Assembly: GCA_017512175.1 (NCBI GenBank)
Contig: JAFWHA010000005.1
Span: 1 to 57,802 of the forward strand
Source of the DNA: Candidatus Saccharimonadota bacterium
Lineage (GTDB): Bacteria; Patescibacteriota; Saccharimonadia; Saccharimonadales; Saccharimonadaceae
Direction of reading: 5' to 3'
DNA length: 57,802 nt
Shown in pieces: positions 1-57,802 of this stretch. Made by a program: the position numbers and the translations under genes. The notes below the pieces were generated by a model, which had not been told where the DNA came from, made no database searches, and worked only from the letters and a program-made list of their open reading frames with translations. The first letter of the stretch is position 1. Every line of letters begins with the position of its first letter.

Positions 1-954
1 TAGTGCATAAGCTGTTCCTGTACCATCTGGTTTAGTGTTCCATTCTTTTATAACCATATTAGTCTTAATTGGCATATTACTAATTCCACTAGGGATAGTA
101 AAAGTATATGTAGATGCTAATGAAGAAGCAGTAAGATCTTCCGGCATATCAGCTAGTCCTGCACTAGATGCGCCTTCTTCCCCACCTGCTCCATCTAGAT
201 TAGCGTTGAACGTTAGCTTATAATCTATCGGCACGTCATTAGCTATAGCCGTGAACTCTAATGTATTCTTGTAAGTGCCAGAAGTAAGTCCTGAAGTAGC
301 ATTCACACCAATAGTAACTGGTGTTAAGCCCTTATCTACAGCAGTCTCTTTCTCGTCAATTTGTCTTTGTTCAGTTTGTTCTGGAACACCAGCATAGGTA
401 ATACTAGTAGTATCCGTAACATCAAGAGGAGTAAGACTATATCCCCACCTATTCCTATAAAGAGAATTCCTAACCCTAAAGTCAGCTTCAGTGATAGTAG
501 GAATGTCAGTGCCGCTACTAGCTAAATCTAATGTAGGGATAGTACCAACACTAGACTCTACGGCAGGATCTGTGTTAACTAGTGCAGTAGTATAAGCTGG
601 CTCAGAGCTACCTGTGCCATGGTCTTTACCAATACTAGTCATATATAATTTATACCCAGTTACATTAGACGTGGAGCCTTCCACCATTAGACTATTCTTA
701 GCAAAAGAGCCATTAGGAGTAGGGGTAACATTAATCACTAGGTTAGTTATTTCTGTGCTAGCAGTACTATCTAAGATGCGTAATGCAACCATGTCTTTAA
801 GGGTAACAGCTACTTCTGATGGGCCGGTGGAGGTAGCGGCGGAAACAGAAGTAATGTCACTGATAGATATAGCCATGAAAGAAAAGACACCGATTAAGAA
901 TACTATTACTGCAATCGGTTTTTTGTACTTGCTTTTATTTTGCCTTATTGACAT
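1..954 (-). CDS. Putative secreted or surface protein, 3' end cut by window edge
   Basis: An open frame runs from an ATG at 954-952 to the window edge with no stop, so the C-terminus is missing. A strong Shine-Dalgarno (AAGGAGG at 958-964) fixes the start. The N-terminus is basic (KSKYKKP), followed by a hydrophobic stretch of about 20 residues and a small-residue region, as in a signal peptide or N-terminal anchor. The remainder (about 290 residues) is rich in Thr, Ser, Asn and Ala and nearly free of Cys, typical of an exported adhesin or pilin-like protein. I recognise no family. The long structured leader upstream suggests regulated expression. Being exported is likely; the function is unknown. 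Confidence 0.75.
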   Translation of the reverse strand, partial: MSIRQNKSKYKKPIAVIVFLIGVFSFMAISISDITSVSAATSTGPSEVAVTLKDMVALRILDSTASTEITNLVINVTPTPNGSFAKNSLMVEGSTSNVTGYKLYMTSIGKDHGTGSSEPAYTTALVNTDPAVESSVGTIPTLDLASSGTDIPTITEADFRVRNSLYRNRWGYSLTPLDVTDTTSITYAGVPEQTEQRQIDEKETAVDKGLTPVTIGVNATSGLTSGTYKNTLEFTAIANDVPIDYKLTFNANLDGAGGEEGASSAGLADMPEDLTASSLASTYTFTIPSGISNMPIKTNMVIKEWNTKPDGTGTAYAL

Positions 955-56124: not shown

Positions 56125-57802
56125 TTAGATAGAGACACAACGGACATTAAACCCGAAGTACTTGACGTAGCCGTGCTGCGGGTTGACGCCCGTCGTGTAG
56201 AAGTCCAGGTAGTAAGCGTTGGTAGCAGTACTATCAGCAGTAGAAGACCACCAGTGACCGCCGCCGACATTCTGGAAGGCACCCGAGCGGAAGTAGCCGG
56301 CACGCGGAAGGTTGAATGGAAATGCTTCTAATGTTTTATACTCAGTATCAGAAGCGTGGTTTTCTGGAGAAATCCCATAAGCTTTTACTAAAGTCCCCCA
56401 AGATTTATTTGCTCCACCATCTGGATATTGTTTATTGGTATAATTAGTCGGTAACCTCCAATGAGCTGGACAGATAGAGTTTGTAGCATCTCCGTCGTTG
56501 GTAGTCATGCTAGATGTTCCACTACCAGCCGTAGCAGCATACCAAGAATAGTACCAAGAATCATAAGTACTATTGTAAGCAGTGTTGCCATTCATGATAC
56601 AAGCACCATTATTACTGCAAGCATTTCCAGTAGAAAACGTAATAGTATTTCCAGTAGTATTATCAACGCCAGTATATGTCTTATTAGCTTCTAGCTGGAA
56701 TTTTAGATTAGAACTCATCCAACAGTTACCATCTGCTAGTTTTCTAACTACGTAGGAGGTATTGTTTCTAGTGTCTTTTAGAGTTCTTTGTGGGTAATAG
56801 GCGGTGTTTCCACCTTGGTTACCACTAGTATCGGCAGTGGTAGCAGTCTTAGCTGGAGTAGTGGCAGAATTACAAATAGCAGTAGTCATTTGCTGCATGT
56901 TAGAGATAGTGAAGAAAGCTGAGGTTTGGGTAATAGTAATGGTACCGCCTGATGTAGTGCTATTGTTCTTAACGGTTACTGTATACTGAGCTGTGGCTGA
57001 AGTACCAGTAGAATATCCTGAACAAGTATAGCCTTCTGGACAGGAGAAGCTATTTATGTAATAGCCAGAAGCTGCTTTAATAGTGAAGGTCTTAGAGCCG
57101 CCATAAGGAACGACTACAGATGAAGCAGACTTAGTAATATTACCAGCAGAGATATTTACAGTATAGTTTATAGCAGTCCTACCAAACGTAACAGTTCCAC
57201 CTGCATCAGTATTATTGTTCTTAACGGTCATGGTCTGCTCACCTGTAGCAGTTTCTCCAGTAGAGACTCCAGTACAAGTATAACCTTCTGGACAAGTAGC
57301 AGTACTTAAGTAATGTCCTGTACCTGGAGAGACTGTTACTGTCTTAGAGCCACCATAAGGAATAGATAAGCTAGTTGCACCCACAGTAGTACCATTTGCA
57401 GTAATGTTTACAGTGTAGTTATTTAGTGTCCACTTCGCATAAAGAGTAGTAGCGGCAGTCTTGTCCCAGTTTCTAACGCTAGCACCGTTAGCATTGTAGT
57501 ATTGGGTGCCGCTACCGCCGGTACCAGTATAATATCCACCAAAAGTATATCCTGTTCTACTAGGCTTAGTAATTCCCGGCATATCGCTACCATAAGTAGC
57601 AGTAACACTGCCAGTGCCACCAGAGCCACTTTGCTGGTTAAGAGTGACGGTAAATGTTCTACCTTTTCTTGCCATAGTTACTGTACCACCAGCAGTTTTG
57701 GCATTGTTTTTTACGGTCACAGTATACGAGCCAGTAGCGGAAGTACCTGGAGTAAAGCCAGAACAAGTATAGCCGGAAGGACAACTCATAGAGCTAATGT
57801 AA
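56125..57802 (-). CDS. Surface protein with InlB-like repeats and a FISUMP C-terminus, 5' end cut
   Basis: The frame continues past the window edge with no stop, so the N-terminus is missing; at least 558 residues are visible. Repeats of about 70 residues (YINSFSCPEGYTCSGYSTG, TVKNN-type ends) each hold a Cys pair, and one Listeria-Bacteroides repeat (YGSDMPGITKPSRTGYTFGGYYTG) follows the first. The C-terminal 220 residues form a FISUMP domain (LADGNCWMSSNLKF, CPAHWRLPT, GFNVRCVSI), a C-type-lectin-like fold. An adhesin for a host cell is likely. The last 65 codons differ sharply in base composition from the rest. Confidence 0.88.
   Translation of the reverse strand, partial: YISSMSCPSGYTCSGFTPGTSATGSYTVTVKNNAKTAGGTVTMARKGRTFTVTLNQQSGSGGTGSVTATYGSDMPGITKPSRTGYTFGGYYTGTGGSGTQYYNANGASVRNWDKTAATTLYAKWTLNNYTVNITANGTTVGATSLSIPYGGSKTVTVSPGTGHYLSTATCPEGYTCTGVSTGETATGEQTMTVKNNNTDAGGTVTFGRTAINYTVNISAGNITKSASSVVVPYGGSKTFTIKAASGYYINSFSCPEGYTCSGYSTGTSATAQYTVTVKNNSTTSGGTITITQTSAFFTISNMQQMTTAICNSATTPAKTATTADTSGNQGGNTAYYPQRTLKDTRNNTSYVVRKLADGNCWMSSNLKFQLEANKTYTGVDNTTGNTITFSTGNACSNNGACIMNGNTAYNSTYDSWYYSWYAATAGSGTSSMTTNDGDATNSICPAHWRLPTNYTNKQYPDGGANKSWGTLVKAYGISPENHASDTEYKTLEAFPFNLPRAGYFRSGAFQNVGGGHWWSSTADSTATNAYYLDFYTTGVNPQHGYVKYFGFNVRCVSI
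56131..56325 (-). other. Candidate DGR variable region
   Basis: This end of the surface-protein gene is GC-rich in an otherwise AT-rich gene and is full of NNC codons: CGC, GCC, TTC, GGC, GGC, CAC, TAC, GAC, TAC, GGC, then CAC-GGC-TAC-GTC in a row and TTC. All can arise from AAC by changing only adenines. This is the mark of retroelement mutagenic homing. No reverse transcriptase or template is in the window. Confidence 0.55.

Follow-up and report, generated by a model that had tools for sequence, protein, structure and literature searches.

A single DGR with at least 14 predicted adhesin targets in a Saccharibacteria genome, and dif-like sites at which the mutated cassettes may be shuffled

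The adhesin gene at the right end of this contig finishes in codons that are markedly different from those of the rest of the gene, which raises the question of whether its tip is rewritten, and if so from where. The window (the whole stretch of DNA that was analysed, 57,802 nucleotides) is the entire contig C16 of an assembly of 17 contigs and 611,729 bases, estimated to be 72% complete. The gene is an ORF of 558 codons (56125..57801, minus strand), truncated on its 5′ side where the contig stops. Its FISUMP (Fib_succ_major) domain covers residues 340–556 (56134..56784, minus strand); the C-terminal part of the ORF matches TIGR02145 with 46.4 bits (cut-off 41.65), and the entire ORF scores 41.1 bits, slightly below that cut-off. 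A weak Listeria-Bacteroides repeat-like domain at residues 50–123 (57433..57654, minus strand) matches PF09479 at E 9.8e-5, which falls below the curated cut-off. A PDB sequence search with the FISUMP domain gave no match, and its predicted model (pLDDT 34) is too poor for comparison with the C-type-lectin fold. A preliminary description, made from the letters of the window, had reported a shift to GC-rich NNC codons at the end of the gene, and this is borne out by GC3 (0.70 in the final 60 codons versus 0.29 in the remainder) and by the NNC fraction (0.50 versus 0.20). The GC content of the variable region (VR) is 0.57 against 0.40 for the window.

We find that this gene is almost certainly one of at least 14 targets of a single DGR in the same genome. 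Searching the genome with the window VR returned 14 other strong copies, one of which is the template (TR) and 13 of which are VRs, so that with the window 14 VRs, on nine contigs, match the TR. The preliminary description had called for a near-copy with mismatches at adenines beside a DGR-type reverse transcriptase (RT), and both are present on another contig: the TR, an AAC-rich near-copy of the VR, at C12:34929-35110, and the RT, with IGNLSSQ and YVDD motifs, at C12:35216-36388 (minus strand). Its proposal that the adhesin is diversified in trans by a retroelement outside the window is thereby upheld, and extends from the one adhesin to at least 14 targets. The VR, which it had placed at 56131–56325, has a TR-matching core of 172 bp that is narrower and lies within those bounds (56135..56306, minus strand), at the C-terminal end of the adhesin. 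The number of VRs is a lower bound, as many contig ends lie inside the adhesin family, and the breaks themselves mark a variable family: contigs C3, C4, C10, C11, C12 and C17 and the left end of the window all break within its members. At that left end (1..954, minus strand) is an ORF cut by the contig end, the N-terminal head of another adhesin of the window gene's class, and a comparison of contig ends showed its final 141 bp to recur without change at the right end of contig C11.

The gene order on C12 is a target adhesin, an accessory protein of 321 aa, the RT, and then the non-coding TR on the opposite strand, which begins ~105 bp past the stop codon of the RT and over which no sense ORF reaches 60 aa. 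The best solved match of the RT is bRT of Bordetella phage BPP-1 (8ub7, E 2.5e-22), and from this match and the GxxxSQ-type motif (IGNLSSQ) we assign it, on sequence grounds, to the DGR clade. Its nearest named relatives (50–63% identical) come from Saccharibacteria MAGs of goat, roe deer and cattle gut. The accessory protein resembles Avd weakly by sequence (NF033474 in 3 of 20 members), and the predicted structure (pLDDT 86) gives its C-terminal domain an Avd fold, with a four-helix domain (model residues 148–262) that superimposes on Avd 4dwl with Z 15.9 and rmsd 1.5 over 109 aligned residues, and a Z of 16.1 for the model against 8ub8. Ahead of the Avd-like domain lies an extra N-terminal domain of ~140 residues. 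MutS domain I was considered for it and rejected, one member reaching E 0.04 and hhalign against an approximate sequence of E. coli MutS domain I giving a probability of 0.5%. Upstream of the accessory and RT genes (L001:3515-3693) stand about six imperfect palindromic repeats of ~27 bp, CTATGAAACGTAG-like and in tandem, which are possible operators.

The differences between TR and VRs are concentrated at adenines. Over the 172-bp core, 267 of 672 TR adenine cells are changed across the 14 VRs, against 71 of 1726 cells at other bases (C 38/752, G 8/487, T 25/487), that is 40% at A versus 4% elsewhere (Fisher p 1e-100). The window VR alone differs from the TR at 20 of 48 adenines and 6 of 124 other bases (Fisher p = 1.8e-8), and in the VR adjacent to the RT all mismatches (21/21) fall at A. 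Fourteen AAC codons are replaced, each in at least 11 of the 14 VRs, and as AAC becomes NNC upon mutation no stop codons can arise. The framework residues WWSST and NVRC, described earlier as kept, are indeed common to VR and template, and the 3′ end is conserved in both. Among the 338 mismatches, the 71 at non-A bases often involve TR positions 63 and 72. These core thymines change in correlated groups of VRs (T63 to A/G, T72 to C/G; L011), which suggests either older versions of the TR or another TR, located in the 28% of the genome that is missing.

With the exception of a conserved block (0.96), third-codon identity among the aligned targets is ~0.42–0.75 over most of the FISUMP domain, and it rises to 0.89–0.96 from the VR start until just short of the stop. 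Identity at codon positions 1 and 2 drops to 0.60–0.65 in the hypervariable part of the VR. In keeping with this, pS is ~0.5 outside the VR versus 0.08–0.17 inside, and pN/pS 0.21–0.28 outside versus 1.1–2.5 inside. The jump in third-codon identity at the VR boundary, from ~0.55 to 0.95 overall, thus indicates that long-diverged genes were later overwritten from a single source. We consider that this homogenisation of silent sites, more than the A bias alone, shows from the aligned sequences that the element acted in trans at dispersed loci, and it is evidence of past copying. Some long identical runs also occur outside the VR, where the conserved block may account for part of them, and we do not claim gene conversion there.

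The same layout is found in relatives. An RT of the DGR type is present in 23 of 35 same-genus relatives. Twenty loci of the genus were examined for the accessory protein, and each has a relative of it upstream of the RT. Wherever a TR was identified in the genus, at 18 loci (this genome and 17 others), it shows the same TR–VR relation and is inverted with respect to the RT. So it is in 7/7 named Saccharibacteria loci, a set that overlaps the former by at least one contig; a further locus gave an ambiguous result, and no TR was obtained for two more. In three Bacteroidetes relatives TR and RT are on the same strand. With the inverted TR fixed in the lineage, the template RNA and the RT would have to come from separate transcripts; two consensus matches that might have marked a promoter on the TR strand were rejected, being not above chance. 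Three relatives have one clear VR per TR, in addition to a 29-bp edge match to a headless cassette (see below) in relative G032 and a weak match in relative G019, so that the expansion to 14 VRs looks peculiar to the present lineage.

Mutagenic reverse transcription and retrohoming are established in BPP-1-type DGRs. By analogy, TR RNA in the VR-coding sense would be reverse transcribed with random bases placed at adenines, and the cDNA would overwrite, in trans, the 3′-terminal VRs of FISUMP adhesin genes genome-wide, such that the 14 AAC codons would vary as NNC while the framework stays. The products would probably be secreted adhesins with changing ligand-binding tips that contact host bacteria or gut surfaces, in line with the earlier suggestion that the tip may form a host-binding surface. 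We regard hypermutation by the DGR, as a first tier of diversification, as near certain.

The targets fall into three classes, namely four complete adhesins of 670–718 aa (class A), the window gene and two more with heads cut at contig ends (class B), and seven headless ORFs of 213–232 aa (class C), in which we found neither a signal peptide nor a convincing start. At the boundary between head and tail, the headless cassettes and several class-B genes carry a junction site of 30 bp (12-bp arms and a 6-bp spacer), which reads AATGTCGCACAA-N6-TTGTACGACATT in G032 and in slight variants in this genome. The arms are inverted repeats of each other, agreeing at 8–10 positions in this genome and at as many as 11 of 12 in G032. 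We read the junction sites as dif-like sites for an Xer-type tyrosine recombinase, and there is an even chance that such an enzyme inverts or swaps FISUMP C-termini at them. The DGR-mutated headless cassettes could then, just as plausibly, be attached to heads with a signal peptide or stored apart from them, and we give the same weight to mutated C-terminal cassettes changing places between silent and expressed loci. The full scheme, in which lectin-like C-terminal cassettes form a genome-wide library that is hypermutated by the DGR and shuffled by the recombinase onto a few expressed heads, falls just short of an even chance. If it is true, a cassette could acquire mutations during a silent phase and be displayed afterwards.

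Several observations point to such shuffling. Across all 14 sites of this genome 17 bp are invariant, silent positions included, even though the contexts upstream are unrelated (a 75-bp leader, two head types, the ends of other genes) and different FISUMP families lie downstream. Inverted sites surround tail-to-tail C-termini in L042, L049, L157 and L158, a geometry that occurs in two species and that in L042 takes the form of an 80-bp perfect inverted repeat around the two C-termini. The spacer varies from locus to locus and is the same within the pair in 5/5 loci (these four and the head-to-head L043), although gene conversion within a locus could also equalise paired spacers. In G032 two contigs, of which one carries a head and the other an unrelated flank, share their terminal 141 bp just beyond the site. 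The three tyrosine recombinases of the genome (C9, C14, C11) include one of Xer type (C9:47099); none of the three lies beside a headless cassette, which counts against shuffling, and no serine recombinase was found in the genome. It also counts against it that no inversion is seen in the assembled contigs and that the window gene's own copy of the site is degenerate (56766..56799, minus strand; 21/34 bases like the paralogues' site). The window holds no intact site, and with its junction degenerate the window gene is a DGR target that is probably not, or no longer, shuffled.

The arms of the site occur in IMG/VR contigs as well, which is again consistent with shuffling by recombination. There, 12 contigs (L164–L175) carry one ATGTCGCACAA-N6-TTNTACGACAT copy each, several near contig ends, and these copies may serve as attachment sites for phages integrating at the Saccharibacteria dif. 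In G027 (C1, L112:3320-3349) a copy lies at a distance from adhesins, in ~700 bp of intergenic DNA that separates two convergent frames, and is a candidate chromosomal dif.

Alternatively, the headless cassettes could be debris of duplication, and the shared 30 bp could reflect codon conservation or a regulator's operator. The missing starts and signal peptides would fit this explanation, as would the diverged VRs of two cassettes, yet we think it unlikely, for the seven ORFs are intact and their domains are under the same constraint as the full-length ones (pN/pS 0.28), which itself agrees with shuffling. The silent VR sites are homogenised in the headless cassettes too, the silent positions of the site are invariant whereas pS is near 0.5 in the neighbouring domain, and another species shows the same geometry. 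A programmed frameshift or an alternative start behind the headless ORFs was also considered and rejected, no conserved start or signal being found. The two cassettes with diverged 3′ ends (L070:774-1475 and L049:2228-3007) bear the leader, do not match the TR, and have apparently been retired from, or were never in, the DGR target set. The 75-bp leader precedes the headless cassettes and is missing in G032, and is thus not essential; as an RNA family it was rejected, with no Rfam match in the loci scanned. In G019 (L129:1501-1600) the leader stands between inverted TTTTGCGACATT / AATGTCGCAAAA and has no cassette, so that it resembles a small mobile or recombining element.

It is improbable that the DGR was formerly active and is now silent, with a frozen repertoire. 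Most VRs have 3–9 non-A differences and have thus not been rewritten lately, but three have 0–1 non-A mismatches and so were rewritten recently, the RT and accessory ORFs are intact, and the same type of RT persists in the genus as noted above. That the VR differences arose with no DGR at all, by ordinary divergence of duplicates or by recombination between paralogues, would suit the fact that the targets are paralogues and that some changes are at non-A bases, but is already contradicted by the A-specificity, by silent divergence that is low only within the VR, and by the presence of RT and TR in the same genome and across the genus.

The closest model, the DGR of Bordetella phage BPP-1 (brt, avd, TR, mtd), shares with the present system the RT family (8ub7), the Avd fold (4dwl), A-specific TR–VR differences and a VR at the 3′ end of the target gene. 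Unlike BPP-1, the present system has the TR on the strand opposite the RT, an extra N-terminal domain in the accessory protein, and at least 14 dispersed cellular targets instead of one phage fibre gene. DGRs with RT and TR on opposite strands, as here, are known from Shewanella, Vibrio and Photobacterium (DiGReF group 4, three cases; PMC3521204), and inverted G5 cassettes are >20 times rarer than the standard layout (PMC6642488); in contrast to these rare one-off cases, every Saccharibacteria locus that yielded a TR has it inverted. One or few RTs serving many dispersed targets in trans are likewise known, with 18 loci of TR/VR homology for two DGRs in Trichodesmium erythraeum (PMC8867640) and remote variable proteins in cyanobacteria (PMC7517822), but here 14 targets are packed into ~0.6 Mb and half of them are headless cassettes with a dif-like site. 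The system is also like the CPR/Patescibacteria DGRs of clade 2 in the survey of Roux et al. 2021 (PMC8144416), a likeness that rests on their being cellular and of the same radiation; most clade-2 targets lack recognisable domains, unlike the FISUMP adhesins described here.

The proposed second tier invites comparison with site-specific inversion systems. The R64 shufflon and the phage Mu G segment have a constant head and alternative C-termini placed tail-to-tail between inverted recombination sites. The tail-to-tail C-termini between inverted sites are common to those systems and ours; the differences are a dif-like site, possibly an Xer recombinase, many dispersed loci, and C-termini that are additionally mutated by the DGR. 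Moreover, the geometry here is read from contigs, with no inversion observed, and the dedicated recombinase that lies beside the segment in a shufflon was not found beside the cassettes of this genome. Inverted TRs, several targets and remote targets are thus each already known in kind among DGRs. What we found undescribed in the literature searched, which was mostly without subscription papers and is not proof of absence, is above all the coupling of dif-like cassettes with a DGR, and likewise the inversion throughout the lineage, the additional domain of the Avd-like protein and the density of targets.

Cultured Saccharibacteria live on other bacteria. How they recognise their hosts is largely an open question, and it becomes testable whether VR variants track the host bacterium. 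A genome of ~0.6 Mb with at least 14 adenine-mutated tips and one retroelement devotes much of a small coding capacity to variable binding. If cassette shuffling is true, random point mutation and combinatorial joining would act on the same bacterial domain, loosely like vertebrate antibody genes. We point out that surveys of RT neighbourhoods miss remote targets, which Roux et al. state were not detectable in theirs (PMC8144416).

The genome encodes two RTs, the DGR-type on C12 and one on C11 (C11:143477; L002:871-2397), which we rejected as a component of the DGR. The latter is AbiP2-like (PADLOC PDLC03744, E 8e-140), adjoins a Clp-type ATPase gene and is a putative anti-phage defence gene.
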